Shown here: positions 1,554-30,097 of the stretch, piece after piece
How the letters are laid out: every line of letters starts with the position of its first letter
Numbering within the stretch: position 1 is the first letter of the stretch
NCBI RefSeq assembly: GCF_004684205.1
Contig: NZ_SRIO01000017.1
Location: forward strand, 1 to 40,503
DNA: 40,503 nt
Source: Candidatus Macondimonas diazotrophica
Lineage (GTDB): Bacteria > Pseudomonadota > Gammaproteobacteria > UBA5335
Direction of reading: 5' to 3'
The notes under the pieces: model-generated
What the model was told of the DNA's origin: nothing
Database searches by the model: none
Seen by the model: only the letters and a program-made list of their open reading frames with translations
Program-made: the position numbers and the translations under genes

Positions 1554-1554
1554 T

Positions 1555-3165: not shown

Positions 3166-3166
3166 A

Positions 3167-3775: not shown

Positions 3776-3778
3776 ATT

Positions 3779-12805: not shown

Positions 12806-12807
12806 CT

Positions 12808-13689: not shown

Positions 13690-14890
13690 GTCCTAATTCC
13701 TCAGCTGTGAGATATTTAGAATCAACCGTTCCATCATTTTTAAATTTCAGTTTTCTTCTACTTGCTGTAAAGCCTTCAGCGGAATATTTTATTTTACCTG
13801 CTGTAACTAGATTGCGGGTAACTCTTGCCAGCTCATCTAAATCTGATAGATCATGGTGAACCAGTTCCCATATTGCAGCAAAATCCAAAGGACGCTCAGC
13901 TGCTTCAAGTATTTCTACCACCTTATGAGCGACCCCAGCATTTTTACCTCTGCCAAACTCACCAAAAGCTTTTGGCATATAATGCTCTGCATAAGAGAGT
14001 ACAGTATTAGCATATACAACATCCTCTGGTTCTATAATATTAGAGCATCTAGCTGCTGCATGAATAGTTATTAGTTTCAATAGGTGTATGAGTCTACGAC
14101 TGCTATAATGGGCAAAACGTTCATCTTCTACAGGACTCCAAGTTTTGTAAATTTTATCCACTAAAGCTACAGCTTCTTCAGTTATATCTAATGCACCATT
14201 GCAGTTCAGTTTAATTGCTTTTAGTTTTGTTATAAAATCTTCCAACTGTTCTTCACTTGGGGCGGCAGGAAATGTTATACGCTTTTTAGTAGGCTCAGAA
14301 AATACAGCTATTATTCGGCTGAAAAACCCCTGGCCCAAAGCCTCTGGTGGAAAGGTATTAGCAAGAGTTGTTTGGGTGTTCCCTGCCAGCAACGATATTA
14401 CAGGATCACGTATTTCAACTTGTGCTCCATTTTTAATCCTACTCTTATACACTCCAGAATAATCCCAAAGAACTCCAAGTGTAGCAAGAAAATCAAATAT
14501 GTTGTTGCCAAAGAAATCATTGAATTCATCTGCGGTAATAAAAGACTCTGCCATATCATTATCAAAAGGGGAATCCAATAAGTCAGCTTCTTCCATACCA
14601 GCTAAGTCCATAAGAAATTTCTCTTTTGTTGTTTTCTCAGCTGCAAATGCATCATAGCCTGCTCGCATCAAAACTTTCTTTGCTCGTTTTATTGCACTAG
14701 ACTTTTTTACTCCAGATGCTCCCATTAGCAGCACATACAAATTTGGGTACAGTTCCATTCCACTAAATTTAAAATAAGCATCTCGTCCAATCCAGGCTCC
14801 CATTGCAGTTATTATTGCCCATCTTCTATATATTGCAGGTACTTCAGTGCCTTCAGTCATGTGTATGTAATCTTTAAATATGTCATACAT
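13682..14890 (-). CDS. DUF3987-like replication ATPase / helicase
   Basis: About 402 residues. Two ATGs stand in tandem; the second leaves workable spacing from GGGGAGGGG, and the first is three bases upstream. Residues 58-66 (GASGVKKSS) form a Walker A variant in which the usual GK is KK, as in DUF3987-type proteins. FITADEF at 118-124 fits a Walker B region, LLAGNTQ near 168-174 fits sensor 1, and GFFSRIIAVF at 189-198 supplies an arginine-finger-like Arg. Such proteins in phages sit beside primases and polymerases and probably act as replicative helicases or loaders. It lies directly downstream of the polymerase gene with an overlap. No primase domain is visible in it. Confidence 0.7.
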   Translation of the reverse strand: MYDIFKDYIHMTEGTEVPAIYRRWAIITAMGAWIGRDAYFKFSGMELYPNLYVLLMGASGVKKSSAIKRAKKVLMRAGYDAFAAEKTTKEKFLMDLAGMEEADLLDSPFDNDMAESFITADEFNDFFGNNIFDFLATLGVLWDYSGVYKSRIKNGAQVEIRDPVISLLAGNTQTTLANTFPPEALGQGFFSRIIAVFSEPTKKRITFPAAPSEEQLEDFITKLKAIKLNCNGALDITEEAVALVDKIYKTWSPVEDERFAHYSSRRLIHLLKLITIHAAARCSNIIEPEDVVYANTVLSYAEHYMPKAFGEFGRGKNAGVAHKVVEILEAAERPLDFAAIWELVHHDLSDLDELARVTRNLVTAGKIKYSAEGFTASRRKLKFKNDGTVDSKYLTAEELGHE

Positions 14891-17066: not shown

Positions 17067-17146
17067 TTGCAAACTCCCGTACCAGAAATTTGTACAATGG
17101 CGCTGTTTCTGCTGTAGCAATAACTGGCGGTAGCACCGAGTTTCCG

Positions 17147-17174
17147 AAAAAAAGAGAGGGCCATATAGACCCTC
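17147..17174 (-). terminator. rho-independent terminator inside the early operon
   Basis: Read on the minus strand, stem GAGGGTC/GGCCCTC (seven pairs, one T-G) with loop TATAT is followed by TC and seven T. It lies just after the SSB-like gene and before the polymerase gene. It would reduce transcription into the polymerase and downstream genes. Confidence 0.85.
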
Positions 17175-17185
17175 CCCAAGTGCTA

Positions 17186-17632
17186 TTATTCTACTACAAT
17201 AGCGGCAAGCGTGTTGTAAGCTCGGTCTTTGTCTTTTCTGTCTTTCCGAACTTTAAGGGTGCAAATTGCTTCTGCTCCTTTAGCTGCTCGCATAACATCT
17301 CGGGAGCTGTCACCGCCAAAAGATTCCCTAAGAACCCCAAGCAACTCTCGCAGTTGTCCTTGTCCTACTTCGTTGGGTTCTCCGTCACTTTTGTACAACA
17401 TGTAAAGAATGCTTCCTGTCTTTCCAGGCTCAGGAGCAGTATCACTGAGATTTGCCAGCTCGATTGTCTCCCGATTTACAAAGGAGAATTCCACAGCAGG
17501 CTTACCATTGACTTCCTTCTCTGCAAAATCAATAGAGAGTCGATAAGTACCTGGAGGAAAAGGCTCAAAACCTTCAAGTTCTACCAAATCTTCTACTGAT
17601 TGGTCAAGCAGATCAAAGTTTACATTGCTCAT
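17186..17632 (-). CDS. putative single-stranded DNA-binding protein
   Basis: 148 residues, GAAGG before the ATG. The N-terminus is acidic (LLDQSVEDLVELEGFEPFP), followed by PPGTYRLSIDF and a beta-rich core (AVEFSFVNRETIEL), a glycine-containing helix region (GQGQLRELLGVLRESFGG) and a charged segment (KVRKDRKDKDRAYN). This arrangement recurs in phage proteins annotated as SSB-like or OB-fold proteins and placed beside the polymerase. A private terminator directly downstream fits the high stoichiometric expression an SSB needs. The OB fold is inferred from the pattern, not demonstrated. Confidence 0.5.
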   Translation of the reverse strand: MSNVNFDLLDQSVEDLVELEGFEPFPPGTYRLSIDFAEKEVNGKPAVEFSFVNRETIELANLSDTAPEPGKTGSILYMLYKSDGEPNEVGQGQLRELLGVLRESFGGDSSRDVMRAAKGAEAICTLKVRKDRKDKDRAYNTLAAIVVE

Positions 17633-17743
17633 TTTAAGTTACCTTCAGTTTAGAAAACAAAAATAAAAGTTGGATTTCACAATTAACATTAAGTATCAGG
17701 TCATACTTCATCTCCTTCTTTTTCAGCGGCAGGGATTTTATAC

Positions 17744-18004
17744 TTAATCGTGTCCATGCGCTAGTTTCCGCAAGCCATCTTTTGCAACTGCTCTGGCTTG
17801 GTACTCATCATATTTAATGTAGCGTCCATTGACTTTAACATAGCAGTCATCTGCAAATACCCACATTACTTGGTGCCCAGACATCTTGCCAAAAGAGTTA
17901 CACTTGTATCTACCGCTACTATAGAATGCAAAAAGTATTAAGCTAGTTATTGAGCACGTTACTATGAGTAAGATAAGCAGAACCTGCATTAATTCTTTAA
18001 TCAT
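17744..18004 (-). CDS. small single-pass membrane protein
   Basis: 86 residues. Residues 7-30 are strongly hydrophobic (VLLILLIVTCSITSLILFAF), a clear transmembrane helix or uncleaved signal anchor. A soluble tail with Cys35 and Cys54 and several basic residues follows. AGGGG abuts the first ATG, and an ATG five codons later is an alternative start. It lies between the MazG-like gene and the SSB-like gene. Function unknown; it is in the early block, so a lysis role such as holin is not favoured. Confidence 0.6.
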   Translation of the reverse strand: MIKELMQVLLILLIVTCSITSLILFAFYSSGRYKCNSFGKMSGHQVMWVFADDCYVKVNGRYIKYDEYQARAVAKDGLRKLAHGHD

Positions 18005-18014
18005 CCCCTGGTTC

Positions 18015-18395
18015 CTATTCTAACTCTTTCACAAACTTACCATTAACCATTGTACCTTTCCTATCTTTGATCTGATTCCAGGCATGAGCTAGACATTCCT
18101 GCATACTTACACCAGAAAGTCTCATTGCTTGTATAAGACAGACTAATATATCTCCAAATGCATCTATCCCTTCGCTGTGAGCTTCATATTCAAAACTTTC
18201 ATAACATTCATGTTGCAGTTCGCCTCTGTGATTGATAAGAAATTCTAATGTATGCTCAGCTTGAAACCACTCAATTACTTCTTCCATGCATTTATACATT
18301 TGGGATTCAGGGGTAGCCCCACCTAGGGTGGTGATGTTTCGTTGGACTCCCCAGTTATTAATCTTCTTTACCAGCGTTTCCAAAGAATCACTCAT
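18015..18395 (-). CDS. MazG-like nucleotide pyrophosphohydrolase
   Basis: 126 residues starting MSDSLETL, chosen because AGGAG is nine bases upstream; earlier in-frame ATGs are too close to that site. Metal-binding residues match the all-alpha NTP pyrophosphatase pattern: E38-E39-x2-E42 in the first helix, and E75-x2-D78 with D82 in GIDAFGDILVCL. The tail DRKGTMVNGKFVKE is typical of phage MazG-like proteins. The enzyme would hydrolyse (d)NTPs or alarmones, altering nucleotide pools during infection. The start overlaps the upstream gene by eight bases. Confidence 0.85.
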   Translation of the reverse strand: MSDSLETLVKKINNWGVQRNITTLGGATPESQMYKCMEEVIEWFQAEHTLEFLINHRGELQHECYESFEYEAHSEGIDAFGDILVCLIQAMRLSGVSMQECLAHAWNQIKDRKGTMVNGKFVKELE

Positions 18396-18579
18396 GCACA
18401 TTTTCTCCTGCGTCATTGCCTTTGATGAGTTTCTCTATCATAAGAGCGTTCTTTAATACTTCGAAAGCAGCCGCTTTTTTAATCCCTTTTGGATCATTGT
18501 CTCTGTAGGCTGGAGGGTACTTATCAATGTACCATTGCTCCCGCTCTTCCCAAGTATAATAGTCGGGTTCAGAAGTCAT
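18388..18579 (-). CDS. small hypothetical protein
   Basis: 63 residues, rich in Tyr, Trp and charge at the N-terminus (PDYYTWEEREQWYIDKYPP) and helical afterwards (KKAAAFEVLKNALMIEKLIK). It overlaps both neighbours by a few bases (ATGA with the Sak4-like gene upstream), which supports translation within the operon. No family recognised. Confidence 0.6.
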   Translation of the reverse strand: MTSEPDYYTWEEREQWYIDKYPPAYRDNDPKGIKKAAAFEVLKNALMIEKLIKGNDAGENVHE

Positions 18580-19373
18580 TGAAATATCTCCAGTAGGTTT
18601 GGAATATCTTTGGTTTCCAGCTGCACTCCAGCCCTACTACCTGTGATAATGTTTGATTTGTAAGTGGTGCTACTTCCCATTTTATGCTTTTTATTTACCA
18701 CTTCGCAATATACTACTTCCCCAAAATACTTTGCTGCATTCCTAGAAAAGTTCCTTGTGCCAGCTACCGGTACCAATTTCTCAGATTTATCCGGCATATC
18801 TACTGCAACTTCATGGGATATGCAAACAATATTTCTTTCCCAATTTTGTACATGGGATAGAAATATATCAAATAACTTGCCAAGATGCCCCCAATCGTCC
18901 CAGTCTAGTTTGTAATCATCTGGCCTATTTCTGGTCATGTTGGAAATCAGGCTGTTTGTAAACTGGGTCAGGGAATCAAATACTATAATATCATTTGGCC
19001 CCATGTCCTGCATACAAACTTCAGTTATTAGTGCCCCTGCTTTGGGCTCTTTTGTTTTTATGTCCATGCAATGGGGGCAACTTATTTTACCGTGCTCCCA
19101 GCAGATCAAGCATTTATGGCCCCTGATTATTTTTAGCAGAGTTTCTGCTGCAATTGGATAGTCTCGGGTGTCTGGGATTCGTACAATATCAATATTGGCT
19201 TTCATCTCCGGGGGTAATTTGAATATGGTATCCCTGCCATTTTCTATATCAACATAAATGAGATTGTATTTTTCAGCTAGTTTTGCTGCTGCCTCAGTTT
19301 TACCTGATTTCGGTGGTCCATATAGCAGCACTTTTTTTGCCGCACTTTGCTCAACTTCTGTTGCTCTTACCAT
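18576..19373 (-). CDS. Sak4-like / AAA_24 ATPase with a four-cysteine insert
   Basis: 265 residues. Walker A is GPPKSGKT at 19-26 and Walker B IIVFDSL with Asp133. The RecA-like core also has VCISHEV after the middle, and a C-terminal beta region (SNIITGSRAGVQ). These features match phage AAA_24/Sak4-type ATPases, which anneal or exchange single strands with SSB during recombination-dependent replication. Between residues 86 and 102 is an insert with Cys88, Cys91, Cys99 and Cys102 (CLIC and CPHC), a probable zinc ribbon. Neighbours are the Cas4-like nuclease and two small genes, with overlapping ends throughout. An alternative is a general RecA-fold ATPase. Confidence 0.75.
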   Translation of the reverse strand: MVRATEVEQSAAKKVLLYGPPKSGKTEAAAKLAEKYNLIYVDIENGRDTIFKLPPEMKANIDIVRIPDTRDYPIAAETLLKIIRGHKCLICWEHGKISCPHCMDIKTKEPKAGALITEVCMQDMGPNDIIVFDSLTQFTNSLISNMTRNRPDDYKLDWDDWGHLGKLFDIFLSHVQNWERNIVCISHEVAVDMPDKSEKLVPVAGTRNFSRNAAKYFGEVVYCEVVNKKHKMGSSTTYKSNIITGSRAGVQLETKDIPNLLEIFQ

Positions 19374-19588
19374 GATTCAGGTCTCCCAGTTGCTTTTTCA
19401 GTTCGTCTGCCTTGCAGAAATTTGTGCTCAACGGCACGCAAATCTTCTTTAAATTTGGCTAAGAGTTTCTCTACTTCTTGGTTATGCTCTGTAGAGCCAA
19501 GCGGGTTGCTTATAGTGCAGTAGGCTACTGTAGCTTCCAGCAGAAGCTTCTGTATAGAATGCAATGCTTGTATTGTTGCATCTTTCAT
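19367..19588 (-). CDS. small helical hypothetical protein
   Basis: 73 residues from MKDATIQALHS. The ATG shares one base with the upstream stop (TAATG), and the purine-rich GGAAGTGAG lies about nine bases before it; the longer frame upstream is unlikely. The protein looks wholly alpha-helical (IQKLLLEATVAYC, VEKLLAKFKEDLRAVEHKFL) and ends in basic residues. It overlaps the Sak4-like gene by seven bases, which suggests coupled translation and possibly a partner role. No family recognised. Confidence 0.55.
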   Translation of the reverse strand: MKDATIQALHSIQKLLLEATVAYCTISNPLGSTEHNQEVEKLLAKFKEDLRAVEHKFLQGRRTEKATGRPESW

Positions 19589-19818
19589 TAGACGTATCTC
19601 ACTTCCTTTGCTATAGCTGCTGCTATACAAGCGGAACAAATATCTACATCGAATACATTCGGCTTTTCTACATTTGTATCTGACTGTTTACTTATAGTTA
19701 TATGCCTGCACACTACTTTCCACGGACCCACAGAAAACCTTATATTCGGATTTCCTTCTTTTATGTACACAGTCTCTGGCATTTCTCTTTTGCAAATATC
19801 ACAATAGTATCTTTTCAC
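19588..19818 (-). CDS. small zinc-ribbon-like protein
   Basis: 76 residues, starting at GTG in a GTGA overlap with the Cas4-like gene. Two CxxC pairs are visible, YYCDICKRE at 5-13 and DICSACIAA near 59-67, a spacing that fits a small zinc ribbon. Between them is a beta-like segment (IRFSVGPWKVVCRHITIS). It may help a neighbouring nuclease or ATPase bind nucleic acid, but there is no direct evidence. Confidence 0.6.
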   Translation of the reverse strand: MKRYYCDICKREMPETVYIKEGNPNIRFSVGPWKVVCRHITISKQSDTNVEKPNVFDVDICSACIAAAIAKEVRYV

Positions 19819-20816
19819 TTCAGTATGTCCTCTACATTGAACTCAAACTGAGCTTCTACTGGATCCTCCAAATCAGCTTCTGTAGGAGCTGTAATTAGAT
19901 TAGCTGTTTCTAGGTGACAAATATCCATGAATTCACAAACACGACCAAAAGCTGTACAGGATTCCCCTCGCATAGGCCAATGCCCATAGTTTCCCACTGT
20001 CTGTACAAAGTATTCTATCTGTGCTATGTCATGAAAGATGCTTTCAATCCAGCGGGCTTTTTGTACTTTATTTTTAACAAAAGGAAAGGTTTCCCAGCGT
20101 TTTAATTTTGTCATATAGATATTGTAAAGCACTTCATACGCACTATCTTCGGGCTCTAGCACGTCTAGGATAACAGAGTATCCAAGAGCTTGGGCGGAGT
20201 TTTTGTATGAAAAATGATTTACCCAATTACCCGAAGATGTTTTATTCTCGATAACAACCACCCGTCCGGTTTCTTCATCTCGCATTACTAGGTCCATGAA
20301 CCCCCGGAAAGAATAGATCCCAAGAGTCCCAGGAATCCTTATTTTAAAACCCAATTCAATTGCCGGCTTATCATGCCAGTGCATTACCTGCAAATTTTTC
20401 AGCTCTGTATTTTCTTGCATAGCAGTCTCAAAAATCTCCAGAGCTAGTATTACATGAGGTAAAGATTTTTGCTGTTTCTCATTGCAATCTTCAAAGCCTA
20501 CATCCCAAGATTGAACAGCTTTCCAAATTGCTGCATCTAAATCTTTGGTTAGAAGTAATTCAGCTACGCCATCCCCCACTGCATGACCAAAAGCAAAAGT
20601 CACATTTGTAGAGCGATCTTCTTTTTGCTGGGCTCTAAGGCGGTGTAGTTGATACTTTCTTGGACAAGCGTGTAACAGTTGGAGAGAAGAATAGGATTGA
20701 AACAAAAGGCGGGGATCTAATTGTGTGCCATCATCTACAATTTCTATTACAGGAATTTTATTTTCCTGCTCTGTAGGTGATCCATCAAGTAAATCGTCAA
20801 GAATTGAGAAGTCCAT
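19815..20816 (-). CDS. Cas4-like PD-(D/E)XK nuclease with predicted iron-sulfur cluster
   Basis: 333 residues, AGGAAA before the ATG. After SYSSLQLLHACPRKYQLHRL (Cys51) come His78 (FGHAVGDGV), Asp175 in FRGFMDLVM, Glu190-x-Lys192 in VVVIENKTSSG and Gln209 in AQALGY: the full PD-(D/E)XK set seen in Cas4 and AddB. Cys287, Cys294 and Cys300 in CTAFGRVCEFMDIC, together with Cys51, make the four ligands expected for a 4Fe-4S cluster. Phage relatives are exonucleases that generate single strands for annealing by recombinases such as Sak4. No CRISPR array or Cas1 is present here, so a recombination role is likelier than spacer acquisition. Confidence 0.85.
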   Translation of the reverse strand: MDFSILDDLLDGSPTEQENKIPVIEIVDDGTQLDPRLLFQSYSSLQLLHACPRKYQLHRLRAQQKEDRSTNVTFAFGHAVGDGVAELLLTKDLDAAIWKAVQSWDVGFEDCNEKQQKSLPHVILALEIFETAMQENTELKNLQVMHWHDKPAIELGFKIRIPGTLGIYSFRGFMDLVMRDEETGRVVVIENKTSSGNWVNHFSYKNSAQALGYSVILDVLEPEDSAYEVLYNIYMTKLKRWETFPFVKNKVQKARWIESIFHDIAQIEYFVQTVGNYGHWPMRGESCTAFGRVCEFMDICHLETANLITAPTEADLEDPVEAQFEFNVEDILK

Positions 20817-20818
20817 AG

Positions 20819-21265
20819 CTATTTCCTGTTAAGTAGTCTCAGAGCAGAAGCAAAACCCATTTCAAGCCATGAATAATGCACATTAAATTTCAGAGATAAC
20901 TGTTGAATTTCATACTGCAAAGATTGTGCCATTACTGATCCTTTACATCTATAGCAGTGAGAGCGCAGACATCGACCAGTAGAGTTAAAATAGTTTGTAC
21001 ATATGCATATGTCAGGCCAATCTGTCCCGGTAAGGTACTCAGTGTATGCGGGGTTATTGGCATCCACACAGACAGAAAACAGTTTTATTCCAGTCTCCAT
21101 GTAATTAATATAGCAAAGTTTTCGACATTTTAGATACAAGCAACAAAACAGGAATATATCATCTTCGGGAGAATCAGAATAAAATTTACAAGTCTGCTGC
21201 GGTAACCGGCTGTCTTTTAGCTTTTGCAGAAGATTGTTTAGATACTGGGATTTCGAGATTGGCAT
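20819..21265 (-). CDS. cysteine-rich hypothetical protein
   Basis: 148 residues with 11 Cys between residues 26 and 107, including FCC at 40-42, CRKLC at 47-51, CIC at 87-89 and CLRSHCYRC at 99-107; this suggests metal binding. From its ATG the gene would overlap the preceding gene by 80 bases in another reading frame, longer than any other overlap in the early operon, so the true start may be internal. No good alternative ATG precedes the cysteines. The stop lies two bases before the Cas4-like gene. No family recognised. Confidence 0.55.
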   Translation of the reverse strand: MPISKSQYLNNLLQKLKDSRLPQQTCKFYSDSPEDDIFLFCCLYLKCRKLCYINYMETGIKLFSVCVDANNPAYTEYLTGTDWPDICICTNYFNSTGRCLRSHCYRCKGSVMAQSLQYEIQQLSLKFNVHYSWLEMGFASALRLLNRK

Positions 21266-21443
21266 GACGTTTCAGGCCCTCAACAACAAGAGCAATTTCA
21301 GAATCTTCTAAAATGGTAACAACTTCGGGATCTTTTTTCATGTGATCATATATATCTTTTAGCACAGTTTGCATGCCCGGCAATCTATTCTCCAGGGCTT
21401 GTTGCAGGCTCAAAATTTTATCTTTAATTTGTTCAACGCTCAT
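21186..21443 (-). CDS. small helical conserved phage protein
   Basis: 85 residues behind AGGAG, ATGA-coupled to the upstream gene. The body is helical (LSLQQALENRLPGMQTVLKD, DPEVVTILEDSEIALVVEGL), a pattern I have seen in small uncharacterised phage proteins. The basic C-terminal tail (SKQSSAKAKRQPVTAADL) is encoded by DNA that also encodes the start of the cysteine-rich gene in another frame. Function unknown. Confidence 0.6.
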   Translation of the reverse strand: MSVEQIKDKILSLQQALENRLPGMQTVLKDIYDHMKKDPEVVTILEDSEIALVVEGLKRHANLEIPVSKQSSAKAKRQPVTAADL

Positions 21444-21706
21444 AGTTTACTCCTGTAGGATTCCAGGAATTTTTTTGGCATTGTATCATTGCGGGAAAAC
21501 TGCAATTGTATTGTAAGGGTGTCTCGCAAAGATACAGACATAAATCTATAAGACTTCTTAAGTTCAGCACAAGCTAACCTGAAACCTCGGTCTTTATGAG
21601 ATTCGTATCTGAATCTTCTCATGATACGGCGGTGTTGAGATTTGTCTATTTGTATCTCAATCTGTTTTCCGGTTTTCAATACTTCCCAGAGAGACTCAAA
21701 GTTCAT
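21440..21706 (-). CDS. small basic hypothetical protein
   Basis: 88 residues from the ATG (MNFESLWEVLKTGK); a TTG five codons upstream is a weaker start. The sequence is basic (IDKSQHRRIMRRFRYESHKD) with a helix-strand pattern that could bind nucleic acid. It lies just downstream of a strong terminator, so its transcription depends on readthrough. No family recognised. Confidence 0.55.
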   Translation of the reverse strand: MNFESLWEVLKTGKQIEIQIDKSQHRRIMRRFRYESHKDRGFRLACAELKKSYRFMSVSLRDTLTIQLQFSRNDTMPKKFLESYRSKL

Positions 21707-21724
21707 CAGGAATCTACCCAAGCT

Positions 21725-21766
21725 AAAAACACAGAATCCCCCAACTGGTTAGGCTGAGGGATTCTG
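21725..21766 (-). terminator. strong rho-independent terminator after the 199-residue early protein
   Basis: On the minus strand the arms CAGAATCCCTCA and TTGGGGGATTCTG pair over about 12 positions (one T-G), with a loop of about ten bases, followed by TGTTTTT. It closes a one-gene unit whose promoter is at 22434-22462 and separates it from the rest of the early operon. Confidence 0.9.
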
Positions 21767-21777
21767 CACACTGGATT

Positions 21778-22377
21778 TTAAAGCGCGTCGGCTGATACTT
21801 GTACTTGCATCAAGCTTTCTACTTTATTGAGTGCCCAAGTAAGAGCTTTTTCATTTCGAGTCACTACATCATCAGGCGCATTTTCAGCAAAGGTAACCAA
21901 CTGATCTTGCAGAATTGCCAAAACAGACTCATCCCCAGCAGCACGTTTGAAACGCTCTACAATAAGCTGAGCTGCTGCTTTGACCCTGGCTACGTCTTTG
22001 CCAGTGATTCCCGGCATGGTTTCAATGTAGTCAGAAGCAAAGGCTTCCAGCTCCTCTTTAGACATGGTATTGCGATCAGCTTTCGGAATGTTCGCAATGT
22101 GTTTCAGAGAGAGTTTGCCTTCTTCTGCCAGAGCATCACAAGTTTCTTGCGTGAAGTCCAGATCATTATCAACAAAGGAGCGCAGATGAGAAGTTACTAC
22201 GCCATGAACTGCGTCTAGCACCAAATCTCGCACATTCGGGTCATCCCCATTTAGTGCAGCAATGATGCCATCTTTTGAAGGTGCAGGTACGTCCAGTTGT
22301 ACATTAGGGCGCTTCCAATTACTGTCCTTATTTTTACGGAAGCCAAAGTTGACTGAAATTACGGTAGTGTCTGACAT
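21778..22377 (-). CDS. probably abundant early protein, paralogue of the 28889-29494 gene
   Basis: 199 residues with AAAGGAAA before the ATG. A beta-like N-terminus (TTVISVNFGFRK) is followed by a long helical body. Residues in KAAAQLIVERFKRAAGDESV, and the ending near FAENAP with the final VSADAL, resemble TAGSRIIREKCKAAAGNPAV, LAEHAP and VDAAAL in the protein at 28889-29494, so the two look like distant paralogues. The gene has its own sigma70-like promoter, a hairpin in its leader (22409-22426, CTGCC/GGCAG) and its own terminator, which points to high expression. No family or function recognised; a DNA-binding or host-takeover role is possible. Confidence 0.75.
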   Translation of the reverse strand: MSDTTVISVNFGFRKNKDSNWKRPNVQLDVPAPSKDGIIAALNGDDPNVRDLVLDAVHGVVTSHLRSFVDNDLDFTQETCDALAEEGKLSLKHIANIPKADRNTMSKEELEAFASDYIETMPGITGKDVARVKAAAQLIVERFKRAAGDESVLAILQDQLVTFAENAPDDVVTRNEKALTWALNKVESLMQVQVSADAL

Positions 22378-22433
22378 ATCTATTTCCTTTCGTTGGTTGG
22401 GTTTATATCTGCCCTATGGGCGGCAGCGAGGAC

Positions 22434-22462
22434 ATGATCGCACGGGGCGGGCAGCATGTCAA
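22434..22462 (-). promoter_or_regulatory. sigma70-like promoter for the 199-residue early gene
   Basis: On the minus strand a perfect -35 TTGACA (22457-22462), a 17-base GC-rich spacer and a -10 GATCAT (four of six to TATAAT) precede the gene by about 55 bases. The leader contains a short GC-rich hairpin that could stabilise the mRNA. Confidence 0.65.
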
Positions 22463-22473
22463 GTGGCCGGGTG

Positions 22474-22716
22474 CTATAGTTTATTCAAGTCTGAAATAAA
22501 TTTATTTAATGCATCTAGCGCAGCTAATTTAACTTTCTGTTTTAACTCTGCCAAATCTTCTTTTTTTAGCTCTTGACTTTGCATAGCCTCTGTTCTCCAT
22601 TTGTATAAAGTAGCTTTAGAGATGTTAAATCTCTCTGACACCTTTTGTACACTTGCTCCATCTTCTAAAAGTTCTGCCAAAGCAGCTTCTTTTGTTTTTG
22701 ATTTAATTGCATTCAT
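22474..22716 (-). CDS. small helix-turn-helix DNA-binding protein
   Basis: 80 residues, AAGGAG seven bases before the ATG. Residues 10-44 (AALAELLEDGASVQKVSERF then NISKATLYKWRTEA) form a clear homeodomain-like helix-turn-helix of the transposase or terminase-small-subunit type. A lysine-rich helix follows (LAELKQKVKLAALDALNKFI) and may dimerise. It sits immediately upstream of the promoter of the 199-residue gene, so it may regulate early transcription. Too small to be a transposase. Confidence 0.7.
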   Translation of the reverse strand: MNAIKSKTKEAALAELLEDGASVQKVSERFNISKATLYKWRTEAMQSQELKKEDLAELKQKVKLAALDALNKFISDLNKL

Positions 22717-22949
22717 TGCAAGGCTCCTTTTTCAGGGGGAACGACAACGTTTCCGGTCACTGGATGAATACCAAGCACCAGCTGAGCTGTTTCTATGTCC
22801 CAGATATTATAAATTTCGGGGGGAAACAGATTTGCTCTGTAATCTATGGCCTCTTTGAGAGTTTTAACCTCATATGAAACATCCGGTACCTCTAATAAGT
22901 CTTTAAAGTCTATGTATTTAGGAAGTATAATGTAGCATCTGGCTGTCAT
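22713..22949 (-). CDS. small hypothetical protein
   Basis: 78 residues, ATGA-coupled at both ends with the HTH gene and the 39-residue membrane peptide gene. A strand-rich start (CYIILPKYIDFKDLLEVP) is followed by a helix and a short beta segment (DIETAQLVLGIHPVTGNVVV). No family recognised; it is supported as a gene by the tight overlaps and the GGGGGC before its ATG. Confidence 0.6.
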   Translation of the reverse strand: MTARCYIILPKYIDFKDLLEVPDVSYEVKTLKEAIDYRANLFPPEIYNIWDIETAQLVLGIHPVTGNVVVPPEKGALQ

Positions 22950-23065
22950 TTAATTGCCCCCGATAATAAAATGATTGCAAATAGAAGCCAAGCTAAAGCA
23001 AAACCTGTTACAATATTTAGCAACTTATTCAGCTTTTCCAGATTCTTTTCCGCTTTAGTTTTCAT
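22946..23065 (-). CDS. 39-residue membrane peptide
   Basis: A short gene with AGAGG eight bases before the ATG. It overlaps the end of the helicase gene by 11 bases and couples to the next gene through ATGA. The first 16 residues are a charged helix (MKTKAEKNLEKLNKLL); residues 17-36 are a hydrophobic segment (IVTGFALAWLLFAIILLSGA) long enough to cross a membrane. The ribosome-binding site and both overlaps argue that it is translated. Function unknown. Confidence 0.65.
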   Translation of the reverse strand: MKTKAEKNLEKLNKLLNIVTGFALAWLLFAIILLSGAIK

Positions 23066-24743
23066 TGATATTACCTCTTAGAAGGAATTCAGTGCCAAGA
23101 ACATCAGTTTGTGGGTTGCTCACATTTTGGGCTTTCTCCATATTAGCTAGTTTATTGAAGGCTTCTATTTTATCTTGTAGCGTGTCTCCTGGGATTCGTT
23201 GAGAGTTGATACCTTTTACAAAAGTGCTAGGCTCACAAATTATATGCAGCTCTTTTGCAGCTCTGGTAACTGCTGTATATAGGAGCTCTCTGTACCACAT
23301 ATTGCTTTGGGTGTGGTGGGTCACAAACAGAACCCGGTCCCACTCACTGCCAATACTTTTATGTACTGTAATTGCATAACCTAAGTCCAAAACATTTATA
23401 TCCCCACTGCTGGACAAGGTTTGGTGAATATCTAAGGTAGCATTGTATATTTCTATGGTGTGGGATGCCTCTCTTGATATTTTTTCTGCTCCTTCTGTAT
23501 GGGAAGCTAGGTGCTCTAGCATTCTATCTATATCTTCCTCCCCTTCCATGCCAGCATAAGCTGCTTTTTCACTGCAAGGCACCCTATCTAGGCCATTGTA
23601 ATCTAAAGTTGCTGATGGTCGTCTTGGTAACTTGCCGTAATAGTTGCCGTTTCTTGATATTTTTGTAATCTGGCCTTCCATGCCTCTGTATATTATTTTA
23701 TCTCCTTCTCTGAAGTATTTCTTTTGAATCCCTGAGAAAACTTCAGTTACAGGAGCTTCTGCTTTCTTTGCAAGATATGTAGCTATCTCAGCATTTATTG
23801 CCAAGGTGCCAAAACTTTTGTTAAAAGGAGTAAGTATGATGTCATTAAATGGATCATGCTCTCCTGCTTCTATCTTTTTTATTATAAAATCACACACTGT
23901 AATTACAGCTACTCGCTCATCTAGCTGCTTTTTCCATGGAGTTATTTTTACTGCTCCTTGTTCAGAAGTTACAGCAAAATCAGGTAAGTCCTTCGCTGCT
24001 AATTGTTTTCCATCTTTTATTCTGTGGGCTAAGTTGATTATGGGGGAATTTTTAGCTTGTCTATATATGTGAGTTAGTTCTACAGTGGCAATGCCAAGTT
24101 GTAGGGCTGCTACAAATATGGATTTGCCGAATACTGGGGGGAGCTGGTGAATGTCACCTACTATGATTATTTGTGGTATGTAGGCAATAGCTTCTACTAG
24201 CTGGTTCCAAAGGTCCACCTGTACGGTAGTGCCTTCATCTATTAGGATGATTGCTAGTTTTGGAAGCGGCTTGTATTGGTTGCGGGAAGGTACAAATTTC
24301 ATAGATTTTTTAATATCACCTGAATTCGGATCTATTGTTTCGTAAAAGTCAGGTATAAATTCTAGGAGCTTGTGAATTGTCATACAGTTTTCAGCAAGGT
24401 CTGCTGGTAGCATTCTTTTTATATTTTGGATTGCTTTGTTAGTGAAGCTGATACAGGCAATATTAGGGCTCCCACTCTGTAGGGTTTTGTGTCCATCAGC
24501 TTTTAGAGGTTCCAACTTATTAGCCTTTATCACTTCGTTTACAGCTAATTTAACAAGGGTAGTTTTGCCGCTACCTGCTGGCCCCATAATTAAAACAGAT
24601 TCACCATTGACTATTTTTTGTATTCCTAATTGCTGCTGTGGGTTGTATTCATACCCGTCCTGTTCGCTTCTATTTGTTTGTGCCTGTACTTGGCCTTGAG
24701 TTTTTACACGATTTAATAAAGCTTGCAATTTGGCATTTTCCAC
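23055..24743 (-). CDS. RecD/Dda-like superfamily 1 DNA helicase
   Basis: 562 residues, starting at GTG with AGGAT upstream. Walker A is GPAGSGKTT at 54-62, motif II IILIDEGTT (Asp169-Glu170, with Gly-Thr where Ala-Ser/His is usual), motif III IIVGDIHQLPP at 194-203, and motifs V and VI are AITVHKSIGSEWDRV and RELLYTAVTRAAKELHI. The order matches SF1B 5'-3' helicases such as RecD2 and T4 Dda. In phages these act in origin melting, fork progression or recombination. It stands with the polymerase, Sak4-like and Cas4-like genes in the same operon. Confidence 0.9.
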   Translation of the reverse strand: MENAKLQALLNRVKTQGQVQAQTNRSEQDGYEYNPQQQLGIQKIVNGESVLIMGPAGSGKTTLVKLAVNEVIKANKLEPLKADGHKTLQSGSPNIACISFTNKAIQNIKRMLPADLAENCMTIHKLLEFIPDFYETIDPNSGDIKKSMKFVPSRNQYKPLPKLAIILIDEGTTVQVDLWNQLVEAIAYIPQIIIVGDIHQLPPVFGKSIFVAALQLGIATVELTHIYRQAKNSPIINLAHRIKDGKQLAAKDLPDFAVTSEQGAVKITPWKKQLDERVAVITVCDFIIKKIEAGEHDPFNDIILTPFNKSFGTLAINAEIATYLAKKAEAPVTEVFSGIQKKYFREGDKIIYRGMEGQITKISRNGNYYGKLPRRPSATLDYNGLDRVPCSEKAAYAGMEGEEDIDRMLEHLASHTEGAEKISREASHTIEIYNATLDIHQTLSSSGDINVLDLGYAITVHKSIGSEWDRVLFVTHHTQSNMWYRELLYTAVTRAAKELHIICEPSTFVKGINSQRIPGDTLQDKIEAFNKLANMEKAQNVSNPQTDVLGTEFLLRGNINEN

Positions 24744-24755
24744 GGGGAGTATCCT

Positions 24756-25097
24756 TTACTGTTTTACTATGAAGTCAATTGTTGGCCACTTACGCCGTAT
24801 TACTGCAAGTTTCAGTTCCTTGTAATGAAGCAAACGAACTTTAAATAATACATCATTATATGGATTTTTATACATTGAAAAATGTTCAGGGTTTTTAAAA
24901 GTTGGCCAAGCTTCATGCATCCATATTGCATCATACTTAAATTGCCCATGTGCAATGTGTGCATAATTTGCTGTTGTTATGTTTGCAAGGTGGCGAAAAT
25001 CGAATAAGACATCTTCGCAATGGGTAATGTGGCGAGTATGCTGGTTAGGTATATTTGGAAGAATCAATTCCCGAAGTAATTCTAAATCACAAATCAT
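24756..25097 (-). CDS. histidine-rich hypothetical protein
   Basis: 113 residues with GGAGAG eight bases before the ATG and an 11-base overlap with the upstream gene. It contains many His (NQHTRHITHCED, AHIAHG) and aromatic residues (AIWMHEAWPTF), and a basic end. This might suggest metal binding, but no known motif fits. Function unknown. Confidence 0.6.
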   Translation of the reverse strand: MICDLELLRELILPNIPNQHTRHITHCEDVLFDFRHLANITTANYAHIAHGQFKYDAIWMHEAWPTFKNPEHFSMYKNPYNDVLFKVRLLHYKELKLAVIRRKWPTIDFIVKQ

Positions 25098-26049
25098 TTG
25101 AAGCTCTCCAGACTTTTTTAGCTGCTAGGAATTCCGCAATGTTTTTATACTGGGAAAGTTGAGGTTCCCCTTCTTTGTATTCTTTTATTTGGGTATTACC
25201 TAACAGGGCAGCAATGGTATCCCCAGAAGCTACAAGTATTTTGCCCGGTCTAAATTCTTCCAATACGCTTATAGCATCTCTTAGTTTTTTAAGCAGCAAT
25301 AAAGAATGCAAGGTACCAACTTCAATAGTTTGTTCACAGTGTTCTAGCAATTCAGCAATATCCTCCTGCTGTACCGTGTCACTTAGCAAGGCTACAGGAG
25401 AATCACTACTGAACAATTTTACAATGATACTTTTCCAATATTCATGCAGTGGCATTTGTGTTCCATCAGCATCAATGGGCACAGAAGTTTTTGGGAATTT
25501 TCCTACTGAAGCTGCCCAAGCTGCCATTAATTCAGGTAATTTATTTTTATCCCTGGTGCTGGCTACTTTATTTAAAGTGTTTCTTACAATTCGCAATATG
25601 GCTTCTTCTGCTCTGTCTTTTATTACTGAGGTTTCTATGAATGCGGATTCTCGCAAATCTGTTATTGCAGAATTTAAGGCTCGCATGTAGCCTTTTATTG
25701 CAGCAGGATCATTTGTGGCTTTTGTTATTCTGAATTTTGGGAGGTCTGCAACTCTGCGGTCATCATAGCGCAAAGCTACAACTGAGAGATTTTCTACTAA
25801 AGCTCCCCAATCCTCCTGCCACAATTCTAGCGGTAAATAGGTTTCCCACATTACAGGCAATTTATTGATTAGGGCGCAACCAAATAGGTGAGATTCTTCA
25901 AGGGTAAGTCTACCTGCCATGAATGGCTCTAGCTGACCTTTTATCAGGGATTTTACAGGTAAATTAAATATTGGATGCGGCACTCTGCCATGACCATAGC
26001 CTATGTTGCAGGTGTAGGATATGCCACTTTTAGGACAGTGTAATTTCAC
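25087..26049 (-). CDS. conserved phage protein of unknown function
   Basis: 320 residues, starting at GTG with GGGAG nine bases upstream. The N-terminus reads MKLHCPKSGISYTCNIGYGH then PHPIFNLPVKSLI and LTLEESHLFGCALIN; I believe related N-termini occur in other phage early regions, but I cannot name a family. Cys5, Cys14 and nearby His could bind metal. The remainder is mostly helical without catalytic motifs. It is placed just upstream in transcription from the helicase block, which suggests a replication-related role (inference). Confidence 0.65.
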   Translation of the reverse strand: MKLHCPKSGISYTCNIGYGHGRVPHPIFNLPVKSLIKGQLEPFMAGRLTLEESHLFGCALINKLPVMWETYLPLELWQEDWGALVENLSVVALRYDDRRVADLPKFRITKATNDPAAIKGYMRALNSAITDLRESAFIETSVIKDRAEEAILRIVRNTLNKVASTRDKNKLPELMAAWAASVGKFPKTSVPIDADGTQMPLHEYWKSIIVKLFSSDSPVALLSDTVQQEDIAELLEHCEQTIEVGTLHSLLLLKKLRDAISVLEEFRPGKILVASGDTIAALLGNTQIKEYKEGEPQLSQYKNIAEFLAAKKVWRASNDL

Positions 26050-26064
26050 GTTTTATTACTCCCT

Positions 26065-26454
26065 TTATTTTACATATCTGTTTAAAATTTTCTCAGCGGT
26101 TTTCCAGCCTTCTGGCTCATTATATATTAGATAGCTAGAGAGTATTTCTGTAGCTAGAGATATATAGTTTTTGCCTAAAGCAATTTGTATTGCCCAGAAG
26201 GTGAGAGACTTTTTCTGATATTCTGGACTTGCCATATTTGTCCCCAAATATAGGAAATTAGAAGCTATAAAGTGACCATATAATGTTGTCTTTGGGTGCA
26301 GCAATTTTTCTATCTTAGTAATTGATCTTTTTTTCTCCCATTCTGAGCAATTACTGCGATCTATAGCATGACACATATATGGTGCGCCTTTATGCCATGA
26401 AGCGTAATATGGCATTGCTTTAATCAGGACATTTGCAAACTGAGCTTGATTCAT
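26065..26454 (-). CDS. tandem paralogue 3 of a small phage family
   Basis: 129 residues. It shares with the next two genes an N-terminal FANVLIKAMPYY, a Cys in YMCHAID, a helix ending in LLHPKTTLYGHFI, a YQKKSLTFWAIQIAL block and a C-terminal leucine-rich helix ending NRYVK. The three genes lie head to tail with 16-19 bases between them. The copies have diverged considerably, so the duplication is old. No known family recognised; the His/Cys content hints at metal or ligand binding but is not proof. Confidence 0.7.
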   Translation of the reverse strand: MNQAQFANVLIKAMPYYASWHKGAPYMCHAIDRSNCSEWEKKRSITKIEKLLHPKTTLYGHFIASNFLYLGTNMASPEYQKKSLTFWAIQIALGKNYISLATEILSSYLIYNEPEGWKTAEKILNRYVK

Positions 26455-26470
26455 TTTTCAGCTACCCTTT

Positions 26471-26896
26471 CTACTTTACATAGTGGTTTAAAAGTTTTTT
26501 AGTGAGTTCCCAACCTTCAATGTCATCGTGTCTTATATAACTCCAAAGAAGTTTTTGCATGTCTAAATTAGGATTTTTACCTTCAAGTATTAGATCGGTC
26601 CAAAATGCGAGAGCTTTTCTTTGATATTCGGTTTCACGTATTTCAACATCGTAACGGATATAACCTTTTTCTATAAAATTGTCATATAAATAGGCGCAAG
26701 GGTGAAGTATATCTGCTATTTTATTTTTTGCTCTTTCGCCTTTTTTAGACCAAAAGTAGCGTCCATAATATTTATTTATTGCAAAACACATGCAATTTCT
26801 GGTTTTTGGGTGATCCTTATTTTTAATTCCAATTGCATAGCTTCTGTAGTATGGCATTGATTTAATTAACACATCAGCAAATTCTGCATTATCCAT
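26471..26896 (-). CDS. tandem paralogue 2 of a small phage family
   Basis: 141 residues with AGGAG eight bases before the ATG. Shared family blocks are FADVLIKSMPYY, NCMCFAINKYYG, ILHPCAYLYDNFIEKG, YQRKALAFWTDLIL and LLNHYVK. It is closest to the 26065-26454 copy, sharing ADVLIK-type starts and H/RYVK ends. The middle is basic (SKKGERAKNKIADI). Function unknown. Confidence 0.7.
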   Translation of the reverse strand: MDNAEFADVLIKSMPYYRSYAIGIKNKDHPKTRNCMCFAINKYYGRYFWSKKGERAKNKIADILHPCAYLYDNFIEKGYIRYDVEIRETEYQRKALAFWTDLILEGKNPNLDMQKLLWSYIRHDDIEGWELTKKLLNHYVK

Positions 26897-26914
26897 TTTA
26901 AACTCTCCTGCGTC

Positions 26915-27340
26915 TCAGATTTCAAGAACCAATAAAATATCTTCTGCATTCCAGAGATTTAAATTTTGGTTATGCAAAGCAAGTAGCAATCTCTGTATAA
27001 TAGAAAATGGCGCTTCAGTGATGCTAGCAATATAATATGCCCAAAATTGCAGGGCCTTTTTATCATAGTTGGTGCTAGCAAATTCAATGTCTTTGCGCAG
27101 TTTGCCAGTTTCTGTTAGGTATTCTAACAAACTTGAATAGGGCCAGAGGCGTTTGTTAATTTCAAGTTTAGCCTCTTTTGCTTTTTCTTCCTCCAATAAG
27201 CCATCTTTTGCCATATATGCCAAAGTATCACACATTCTGTAAGAGTATATATTAACGCCTTTATTTGGAAACTCAAAATGGAAAGGAGCATAATATGGCA
27301 TTGCCTGTCTCAATATTTCCGCCATTGTTTCTGGGTTCAT
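26915..27340 (-). CDS. tandem paralogue 1 of a small phage family
   Basis: 141 residues from MNPETMAEIL, chosen because it starts right after the upstream stop with GGGGGA seven bases before; a longer in-frame start overlaps that gene. Family blocks are AEILRQAMPYYAPF, YRMCDTLAYMA, RLWPYSSLLEYLTETGKL and YDKKALQFWAYYIAS. It is the most divergent of the three. Function unknown. Confidence 0.7.
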   Translation of the reverse strand: MNPETMAEILRQAMPYYAPFHFEFPNKGVNIYSYRMCDTLAYMAKDGLLEEEKAKEAKLEINKRLWPYSSLLEYLTETGKLRKDIEFASTNYDKKALQFWAYYIASITEAPFSIIQRLLLALHNQNLNLWNAEDILLVLEI

Positions 27341-27341
27341 A

Positions 27342-27689
27342 CTACTGTCCCCCAATGATATATTTTCCAATGAAATTGATTTCCTCTTTGCTAAGCTCTG
27401 CTGGTTGTTTTGATTGCAGTGCTATTGCAATATCTGCTGCTTCCATTTCCTGCCTAGCTTCTTGGAAGGAATTAAAACTTGCATACTTTTCTGCTAGCAT
27501 CGCAGCAAGTGCAGATTTTTTTGGCTCCGCTTTCTTGTTTTTGCTGTTGCTGCCAACTTGGGCCCGGTATAGTAGCAAATCCAGCTTTCTTATCAATGCC
27601 ACCACAACTTCTGTATCTTCTGAATACTGTTGCAGAGCTTTCATAATTAGCTGTACTTCATCTTCTGTGAGTACAGGTCTGTATTTCAT
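27342..27689 (-). CDS. small helical hypothetical protein
   Basis: 115 residues starting MKYRPVLTEDEVQLIM, with GGGAG eight bases upstream and an ATGA overlap with the previous gene; the frame extends further upstream but lacks such a signal. Helical N-terminus (LIMKALQQYS, EVVVALIRKLDLLLYRA), then a basic linker (SNSKNKKAEPKKSA) and another helical part. No family recognised. Confidence 0.6.
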   Translation of the reverse strand: MKYRPVLTEDEVQLIMKALQQYSEDTEVVVALIRKLDLLLYRAQVGSNSKNKKAEPKKSALAAMLAEKYASFNSFQEARQEMEAADIAIALQSKQPAELSKEEINFIGKYIIGGQ

Positions 27690-27937
27690 ATTCCGTACTC
27701 CCTTAATTCTGCGGCTACAATTTGCAACTCTTGCGCCCAAGTTTTTGTCATTTCCGCAAATGCATTTGCACCTACTTTTTGGTTAATCGCACTCAGTTGC
27801 ATAGCTACAAAGCCGGAAATGCCAGAATAGAAAGCACTTTTCAATGCCATTTTGCTAGCTTCTGAGCAATCTTCTGCAATCATAATGCTGCTGAAATGTT
27901 CCCATAATTCCTGAATTGTGTTTGCTTGCATTGTCAT
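27686..27937 (-). CDS. small early protein, possible paralogue of the 28130-28351 gene
   Basis: 83 residues, GGGAG nine bases before the ATG. TIQELWEHFSSIM, DCSEASKMALKSAFYSGISG and the following hydrophobic helix resemble IIEALWKDFSES, NCTPQERTAHKETFYNAILS in the 28130-28351 product: a LWxxF start, one Cys, then K-x3-FYxxI. Small phage proteins with this shape are common; their function is unknown. Confidence 0.6.
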   Translation of the reverse strand: MTMQANTIQELWEHFSSIMIAEDCSEASKMALKSAFYSGISGFVAMQLSAINQKVGANAFAEMTKTWAQELQIVAAELREYGI

Positions 27938-27939
27938 GT

Positions 27940-28137
27940 TTAAATCTCCCGAAATTTATTGATTCGTGTATTTTGCGCCATATAACGCTGCCACTGGTTC
28001 ACTTCATTATAGAAAATATCTGGCAATTCCTTATTTGTTTTCAGCACCAGCTGAATTCTATGATGCATTTCAATTTCACTGACGCCAGATTCTATGGCGT
28101 ACTTAACTGCCGCTACCACTGAAGTAGTTTTAAACAT
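27940..28137 (-). CDS. small hypothetical protein
   Basis: 65 residues with AGGAG six bases before the ATG and an eight-base overlap with the upstream gene. Helical N-terminus (SVVAAVKYAIESGVSEIEMH) and a basic end. The stop and the next ATG are separated by two bases. No family recognised. Confidence 0.6.
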   Translation of the reverse strand: MFKTTSVVAAVKYAIESGVSEIEMHHRIQLVLKTNKELPDIFYNEVNQWQRYMAQNTRINKFREI

Positions 28138-28351
28138 TGGTTTCTCCTCTGGAAGCTTCTACCGGACAGCCTGAAATTGCAGTTTCAGACTCCTTTGGAG
28201 CCATCTTTACTTCCACACGTGCTAGATTAATAAAGCTCAGTATTGCATTGTAAAATGTTTCTTTGTGTGCAGTTCTTTCCTGGGGCGTACAATTTGCTAG
28301 GTAATTATTGGATTCTGAAAAATCCTTCCATAGTGCTTCTATTATGTTCAT
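28130..28351 (-). CDS. first gene of the long early operon, small protein
   Basis: 73 residues with AAGGA nine bases before the ATG. It is the promoter-proximal gene of the minus-strand block and follows the 540-base regulatory region. MNIIEALWKDFSESNNYLA and ETFYNAILSFINLARVEV relate it to the 27686-27937 gene. No known function; being first in an early operon fits a host-interaction role, but this is only inference. Confidence 0.6.
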   Translation of the reverse strand: MNIIEALWKDFSESNNYLANCTPQERTAHKETFYNAILSFINLARVEVKMAPKESETAISGCPVEASRGETNV

Positions 28352-28394
28352 GTGTTAGTTTCCTTGTTTTGAGTTGCTTGTGGCGGATGCGCCC

Positions 28395-28430
28395 TGACTG
28401 ACTGCCTGACGGACGGACGGACCGCATGAC
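28395..28430 (+). repeat. tetranucleotide tract (T/G)GAC
   Basis: Nine 4-base units in strict register: TGAC at 28395, 28399, 28407 and 28427, GGAC at 28411, 28415 and 28419, with two variant units (TGCC at 28403, CGCA at 28423). It lies in the leader of the early operon, downstream of the candidate promoter at 28432-28460, so it would be transcribed. Confidence 0.75.
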
Positions 28431-28431
28431 T

Positions 28432-28460
28432 AGGGTACCATGCCCGCCGGCCACCGTCCA
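28432..28460 (-). promoter_or_regulatory. candidate early-operon promoter with GGGCATGGTACCCT element
   Basis: Minus-strand TGGACG (28455-28460) and TACCCT (28432-28437) are 17 bases apart and lie about 80 bases before the first early gene. Matches to sigma70 consensus are only 4/6 and 3/6. The 14-base GGGCATGGTACCCT recurs with one mismatch at 29978-29991, where a TTG-type -35 is again 17 bases from TACCCT. Shared spacing makes it a plausible promoter or operator. Confidence 0.35.
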
Positions 28461-28480
28461 TGCCCCAGCCTGCTAGTATT

Positions 28481-28740
28481 GCATCTTACCTAAGTACCTA
28501 TATCCTGATTGCTACCTATACCTTGCTTACCTTATCCTATACACTTGGCGTATATTTTAGGGAGGTACTTAAAATTTAAAGAAAAAATTAGAAAATAGTT
28601 AATTAATTAAAAGAGGGTATATAAGGGAATATAAGATGGTAACATGGGTATATGATAGTAGCAGGGATGCAATGTGTGATAGGTGGGGAAGTTATGGAAG
28701 TATAGTTAATTAGTGGTGGGAGGTGCATGTGTGGGGCGGT
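28481..28740. other. candidate replication origin: skew flip, pentamer repeats and AT-rich core
   Basis: No gene is visible. On the plus strand 28441-28560 has about 39 C and 18 G, while 28561-28740 has about 58 G and only 6 C (hand counts). TACCT occurs five times at 28487, 28495, 28513, 28519 and 28528; the opposite orientation (A/G/T)GGTA occurs at 28563, 28615, 28637 and 28646 on the other side. Between them, 28569-28612 is nearly pure A/T (three G), including the palindrome TTAATTAATTAA. Repeats flanking an easily melted core and a strand-skew switch are typical of replication origins. Function is inferred. Confidence 0.45.
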
Positions 28741-28742
28741 GC

Positions 28743-28821
28743 GTCACTCGGTCAGTCTGTCAGTCCGTCAGTCACACGGGCACTGTGTCACTGTGACATT
28801 GTGACCTGCTGACCGGCTGAC
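28743..28821. repeat. eight-base-periodic tetranucleotide dyad, GTCA x4 / TGAC x4
   Basis: GTCA stands at 28743, 28751, 28759 and 28767, and its complement TGAC at 28794, 28802, 28810 and 28818, each series with an exact 8-base period. All four pairs are symmetric about 28782. The outer arms also share GCGTCA...GGTCAG. The centre contains ACAC/GTGT. It may be a protein-binding array or a large cruciform, next to the candidate origin and the terminator of the 28889 gene. Confidence 0.8.
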
Positions 28822-28831
28822 GCGCCACCAG

Positions 28832-28867
28832 AAAATAAAAAGCCCCACCAGCCGAAACTAATGGGGC
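28832..28867 (-). terminator. rho-independent terminator of the 28889-29494 gene
   Basis: On the minus strand a ten-pair stem (GCCCCATTAG with CTGGTGGGGC, two T-G pairs) with loop TTTCGG is followed by TTTTTATTTT. It begins about 20 bases after the stop codon and isolates this gene from the origin-like region. Confidence 0.9.
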
Positions 28868-28888
28868 ATGGATAACTAATTGAATGTA

Positions 28889-29494
28889 TCAGAGTGCAGC
28901 GGCATCCACTGTTACATTGCGACATTCCGCCAACAATTCCAACAACTTCTCAAACACTGGCGCATGTTCTGCCAATTGTTCCATTTCCTCCGAATCTTCG
29001 CTATCTGCAACAGCAGCAACTAGTGCTTCAATGTTGTTCATCATGGCATCCGCTACTGCCGGATTACCCGCTGCCGCTTTGCATTTCTCGCGGATAATGC
29101 GGCTTCCAGCAGTAGCGGCAGCTTGGTCTTTTCCGAGTAAGCGGATTGAGGCAGAGAAGTAATAGCTTCCGGCAGCATCCAAAGTTACTTTAGTAAGTAC
29201 TCTAGACCAGCCGCCCCGCTCAGCATCAAGACTCTGTACCAATGCTTCCAGATTGCAGTTTTCTGGCGTAGGCTGGAAGTCCCAGTTGTCGCCATTTTCT
29301 AGCAACAACTTTCTTCCGAACGCCTCAATAGCAGCATTGATCGCCTTTGCTTCCGGGCAGCTTGGTTCAAATCCAGCATACTGCCATTCTAGATTCTCCC
29401 GCTTTTGCCCGTAGCGAGGAGAGTTTTTGGCACTGACTTTATGAAAGTAGCTGCTAGCTTTCTGCACTTGCGGAATCAGATTGACGTTGCTCAT
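28889..29494 (-). CDS. probably abundant early protein, paralogue of the 21778-22377 gene
   Basis: 201 residues from the ATG with AAGG eight bases before it; a GTG three codons upstream is less well placed. The N-terminal half is polar with many aromatics (RENLEWQYAGFEPSCPEAK), then a beta-like part (WSRVLTKVTLDAAGSYYFSA), and a helical C-terminus that resembles that of the 199-residue protein (RIIREKCKAAAGNPAV; AEHAP; final VDAAAL). It has its own strong terminator and a structured leader, again pointing to high, separate expression. Base composition looks more GC-rich than the neighbouring early genes. Function unknown. Confidence 0.75.
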   Translation of the reverse strand: MSNVNLIPQVQKASSYFHKVSAKNSPRYGQKRENLEWQYAGFEPSCPEAKAINAAIEAFGRKLLLENGDNWDFQPTPENCNLEALVQSLDAERGGWSRVLTKVTLDAAGSYYFSASIRLLGKDQAAATAGSRIIREKCKAAAGNPAVADAMMNNIEALVAAVADSEDSEEMEQLAEHAPVFEKLLELLAECRNVTVDAAAL

Positions 29495-29527
29495 GTCATG
29501 CACCTTCTAATCAGTTACGTTGTCCTA

Positions 29528-29962: not shown

Positions 29963-29991
29963 TTGTAAAGAAGGTAGGGGCAGGGTACCCT
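29963..29991 (+). promoter_or_regulatory. candidate rightward promoter with GGGCAGGGTACCCT element
   Basis: TTGTAA (29963-29968) is 17 bases from TACCCT (29986-29991) on the plus strand. The same GGGCAnGGTACCCT element with the same spacing appears on the minus strand at 28432-28460. The -10 match is weak. Confidence 0.3.
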
Positions 29992-30097
29992 TTTTTACTT
30001 ATTTGTGGCGGCCCTATCCTATACCACTTCAAAAATTTTTCTAAACTTTTTTACTTCCCAAGAAGTTTCAATACCCTTAAATCCTCCCCCAACATTA

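Follow-up and report, generated by a model that had tools for sequence, protein, structure and literature searches.

We propose, with moderate confidence, that the region at 28380-28867 of the window is the putative replication origin of a phage and is used bidirectionally. The window, i.e., the whole stretch of DNA analyzed (40,503 bases), is a contig of a draft genome and reads as a phage. An earlier sequence-only reading had called this place a probable replication origin, and that remains the best-supported interpretation by virtue of the conserved architecture and position of the region, even though PaP2-type and many distant relatives lack the strong flip in strand composition. The support is architectural: the place, an A/T-rich core, repeat arrays, and a two-sided strand bias would together fit a bidirectional origin (cf. 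Table 1). The literature searched contained no replication origin for the PaP2/PaMx41 phages or their many uncultured relatives. If true, the proposal would provide a testable origin for a whole podovirus group, cultured Pseudomonas phages included, as well as an unusually clean case of strand composition linked to origin function, and the repeat arms could be used as bait for finding the initiator.

Table 1. Coordinates of the proposed origin and of the surrounding genes and elements in the window
Feature	Position	Strand	Description or basis
Whole feature	about 28380-28867		skewed tracts, outer inverted arms, and terminator
Gene-free interval with the feature	28352-28888		ORF lists; between the first early gene (28130-28351, minus) and the 204-aa gene (28889-29503, minus)
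Left arm	28394-28430	minus	GTC units at steps of 4 or 8 nt when read on minus (GAC when read on plus)
C-rich tract (G-rich on minus) with five TACCT	28438-28560		base counts
Skew switch point, proposed dyad center	28556-28557		flip score
G-rich, almost C-free tract with GGGTATATA-type repeats	28561-28740	plus	58 G, 6 C; C-free runs of 74 and 55 nt
A/T-rich core (putative melting region)	28569-28612		41/44 A+T
Right arm	28743-28829	plus	GTC array, then a GAC-containing half able to fold back on the array
Intrinsic terminator of the 204-aa gene	28842-28867	minus	11-pair stem, then a T-rich tail
Conserved neighbor gene, 204 aa, syntenic marker	28889-29503	minus	56 family members upstream of terminase genes, same place
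Terminase-proximal noncoding element	about 29977-30060		GGGG..CCTTTTTT, TCCTA..., ATTTTNCTAAANTTTTT; also TATCCTATA, ATTTTNCTAAACTTTTT; 65 loci, e.g., L020:5075-5165
Early/replication operon	12356-28351	minus	directed away from the feature; encodes a DUF3987 ATPase (primase by annotation), PolA, Sak4-like ATPase, PD-(D/E)XK nuclease, helicase
Late genes	small terminase-like HTH protein 30133, large terminase 30723, portal 32247, on to the right end, again 26-12086	plus	ORF lists and protein scans

The terminase matched, at 33-34% identity, those of Pseudomonas phages PaP2, 119X, and PaMx41 (Fredfastierviridae), EBPR podovirus 3, Polaromonas phage Tiera, and Aeromonas phage P5; judged from its sequence, the phage is a podovirus and a distant relative of Pseudomonas PaP2/PaMx41 (Fredfastierviridae). 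The gene cut by the right end of the window, which we read as amidase-like, and the lack of any detectable overlap between the window ends indicate that the phage genome is slightly incomplete. Since none of 55 related host genomes contained the terminase, the contig looks like an unintegrated phage. Its gene blocks point away from each other around 28.5-30.1 kb and meet again near 12.2 kb, where the cumulative skew peaks (12289), in favor of an origin here. Against it, the minimum of the cumulative skew is at 36783, away from the feature, and the skew tracks gene direction. Because nearly all genes run away from the feature, replication-driven skew is inseparable from gene-direction skew.

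The composition of the region was then quantified with a flip score comparing 120 nt to the left with 180 nt to the right of each switch point. The abrupt GC-skew flip reported from the letters alone was confirmed: the score reached 76 at 28556, the strongest in the window, while the next-best flip in the 40.5 kb scored 47 and 200 dinucleotide-preserving shuffles of the window gave at most 53. The base counts made by hand proved exact (39 C and 18 G in 28441-28560; 58 G and 6 C in 28561-28740), and the five TACCT pentamers were found at 28487, 28495, 28513, 28519, and 28528, i.e., five in 46 nt, as compared with at most three per 60 nt in shuffles. Four GGTA motifs follow to the right of the switch, at 28564-28650. 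The 44-base core said to consist of A and T is not pure A/T, but it is the most A/T-rich 44-mer of the window and is unequalled there. The two longest C-free runs of the window also lie here, 74 nt at 28569 and 55 nt at 28671, the longer one exceeding the 59-nt maximum of the shuffles. No ORF of at least 60 aa is present within 28352-28888, where the longest small frame has 49 aa, in agreement with the statement that nothing coding explains the pattern; a coding explanation was therefore rejected. A known structured RNA was likewise discarded as an explanation, the sole match being a sub-threshold one to Spot 42 over the terminator region.

The frame originally drawn, 28441-28740, contains the flip, the core, and the tracts, but it is too narrow, as it leaves out the terminator and a pair of outer arms that had been missed. 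Although the TACCT and GGTA motifs named as flanking repeats are indeed present, the most notable repeats are those of the outer arms, which are built of mutually inverted GAC/GTC repeats with a period of 4 or 8 nt and lie 130-190 nt away from the switch. The left arm forms with positions 28736-28765 an inverted repeat that is 80% complementary over 30 nt, and nowhere in the window does it find a better inverted partner than the right arm. The pattern GTC-N5-GTC-N5-GTC is matched seven times in the window, each time within one or the other arm, against a chance expectation of 0.03-0.04.

Conservation of repeats at this place in related phages, on which the sequence-only reading had staked its claim, was largely borne out. 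A blastn search of phage records revealed no direct DNA relatives. Viral contigs yielded 107 relatives, and 80 of them were retained. The same architecture of flip, A/T core, and inverted arms recurs in at least ten divergent relatives, where it occupies the equivalent syntenic position, flanked by the early operon and the minus-strand marker gene. A strong flip of the same polarity was detected left of the 204-aa gene in L013, L015, L020, L022, L024, L026, L028, L045, L064, and L069 (z of 4 to 10 versus shuffles), and in four relatives (G008, 44.7 kb; G007; G020; G021) the flip at this place outranks all others on the contig. The strongest flip in the genome of Aeromonas phage P5 is found at the equivalent switch between divergent gene blocks. 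On the other side, no significant flip was present in many distant relatives or in the PaP2 group, which retains inverted arms of another sequence (TCAAGG/CCTTGA) as well as a C-to-G core, and no GTC arrays were seen in L010 and L011, the nearest by terminase, in the half of the region present on their contigs.

The spacing of arm words was counted in 39 non-redundant regions. The GTC triple at exact 8-nt spacing occurred in 11 of them and the GAC triple in 10, with GAC nearly always to the left and GTC to the right. Two regions had the GTC triple at 9-nt spacing, and at 7 or 10 nt neither GTC nor GAC was among the leading words. A+T-rich words recur at 8-nt spacing too, so that the claim of a specific spacing rests on the GC-containing words. 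The letters flanking GTC vary between phages, yet they match between the two arms of one phage, as might be expected for putative co-evolving binding sites. In L028 the arms are swapped (GTC left, GAC right); thus, the inverted relation is kept, but the absolute direction is not.

In the proposed origin, a phage initiator would bind the arms, the A/T core would melt, and forks would leave both ways. On each side, the strand reading outward 5' to 3' is G-rich, so that RNA transcribed outward would be rich in G and its template rich in C, which favors R-loops. The RNAs of such R-loops might keep the duplex from closing or serve as primers for the leading strands, and a strand nearly free of C (or of G), having little G:C self-pairing, could stay open for helicase loading. 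The GTC repeats, located on both presumptive lagging-strand templates, might speculatively act as primase sites, though this reading fails in L028 on account of its opposite GTC/GAC polarity. Autonomous replication is implied for phage Shea of the PaP2 group, which persists as an unintegrated episome (PMC13348215). A more elaborate model, which we advance tentatively and consider rather unlikely as a whole, is a two-sided origin opened by transcription, in which divergent C-free transcripts from the shared A/T core would form paired R-loops priming both leading strands, the whole being fenced by fast-evolving inverted GTC-octamer arrays that an unrecognized kind of initiator would read.

Several known origins resemble the region in part. 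Lambda ori and the plasmid RepA origins, which are of the iteron type, carry arrays of short repeats beside an A/T-rich region, as does the region described here. The same arrangement has been reported for the PLE origin (PMC7145576). Unlike in these systems, the units here are GTC repeats of 8 nt (4 nt in the window) set in two inverted arms 130-190 nt off the switch, and no Rep-like protein was recognized. The region also lies, like R-loop origins, at a switch of both strand bias and transcription. In phage T4, three active origins are located where transcription switches strand and composition shifts, and oriF and oriG prime from R-loops in an A/T-rich unwinding element (PMC3016281). The minimal T4 origins, however, are one-sided, with a middle promoter followed downstream by the unwinding element (PMC3016281), whereas here the arrangement is two-sided with inverted arms, and no promoter was recognized. 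With the T7 primary origin (phi1.1A/B plus an A/T-rich region), the shared elements are an A/T-rich start region and GTC, the core of T7 primase sites (PMC12839067); the differences are that no phage RNA polymerase was recognized here and that the T7 origin stretch gave a flip score of only 18. The T7-type primase pentamer (G/T)2GTC was met once among the 15 GTCs of the arms and was rejected. An A/T core with repeats is already known; what is unusual is that C-rich and C-free tracts form a dyad here and are accompanied by octamer arrays in inverted orientation.

The main rival to an origin is an early promoter/operator region, which would likewise be conserved here. According to this explanation, which we consider unlikely but which deserves weight, the region only controls divergent transcription: the core would fire the early operon (28351 downwards), the arms would be operators for a phage regulator, and the purine-rich tracts would be untranslated leaders. 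Because the upstream gene ends at the terminator, a promoter for the early operon has to lie somewhere between 28840 and 28352, and inverted arrays suit a regulator too. Nevertheless, transcription control leaves unexplained both the mirrored plus-strand half, which faces an antisense gene, and the retention there of C-free tracts of up to 90 nt, and no sigma-70-like promoter above chance was found in the core, with the proviso that host promoters may be of a different type. The terminator probably also insulates the feature from upstream transcription.

A genome end or packaging site (pac/cos or a terminal repeat), with concatemers cut at the dyad center, was considered since the records of PaP2, 119X, and PaMx41 (L095, L096, and L088, respectively, among the loci) start and end within the core, that of PaMx41 opening exactly at the center of CTTAT|ATAAG, and since the 45.9-kb IMG/VR contig G022 starts and ends on the two flanks of the core. 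Shea, too, was reported to have terminally redundant ends (PMC13348215). We nonetheless regard this explanation as improbable. The PaP2-type records Neko, TF17, 20Aug470, and FBPa48 continue across the core, as do most contigs, and the ends of full-length contigs are scattered over various places. Furthermore, a different, strongly conserved element, found in 65 loci, is located directly upstream of the small terminase gene, and the Tiera record is cut inside it; the passages available from the source study state that ends were set with PhageTerm and genomes rearranged accordingly, and those passages give no end type for Tiera. The T7 concatemer junction (SRR-TR-SRL) has in common with the region short regular repeats flanking a few hundred base pairs at a genome end, but in T7 the repeats of the two sides share one orientation instead of being inverted, and the T7 stretches examined show no such flip. 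The terminase-proximal element is probably the genome end or packaging site, and the replication function would lie at the skew flip. As a separate observation, stretches of up to 112 nt without G were seen in several phages, either overlapping the terminase-proximal element or following it.

That the region serves partition or copy control during an episomal phase, its arms acting like centromeres, is scarcely credible: repeat arrays are present and the episomal persistence of Shea (PMC13348215) would suit this reading, but no ParA/ParB-like gene adjoins the region among the proteins scanned (a subset of the ORFs), and partition requires neither the A/T core nor the two-sided skew.

Finally, we looked for proteins that might act at the proposed origin. 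Among the proteins scanned (a subset of the ORFs), no Rep-like initiator domain was detected, nor was one found by fold; no phage single-subunit RNA polymerase was seen among the scanned proteins or in the annotations of PaMx41, PaP2, and Tiera. The candidate initiator is the DUF3987 ATPase (13682-14893), which is annotated as a primase in relatives and for which a PaMx41 note gives similarity to an archaeal origin-recognition protein. Its C-terminus showed a weak winged-helix match, and comparison of its profile with the PDB yielded one local match, to CpcJ, and nothing naming a function. The 204-aa neighbor has a confident AlphaFold2 fold (pLDDT 91; two strands and a helix bundle), for which the PDB, Pfam, and PHROGs offered no noteworthy match. 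A conserved 320-aa early protein (25087-26049, minus strand), encoded upstream of the helicase gene, has invariant Cys, His, and Trp residues; no known domain was identified in it, and its model was poor (pLDDT 69) and had no structural match. The profiles of both proteins gave no credible match in the PDB.

Two further observations were made among the relatives. In the PolA genes of G008, G010, G011, G012, G016, and G018, the matches to family A DNA polymerase are split in two, about 70-145 nt apart (near query residues 443-633), and since the reading frame is open in most of them, an in-frame insertion is possible. Caulobacter phage Kuura (L098) has a very strong flip at 39766 and an opposite one at 43216, near the start of the terminal copy of a 606-bp repeat.
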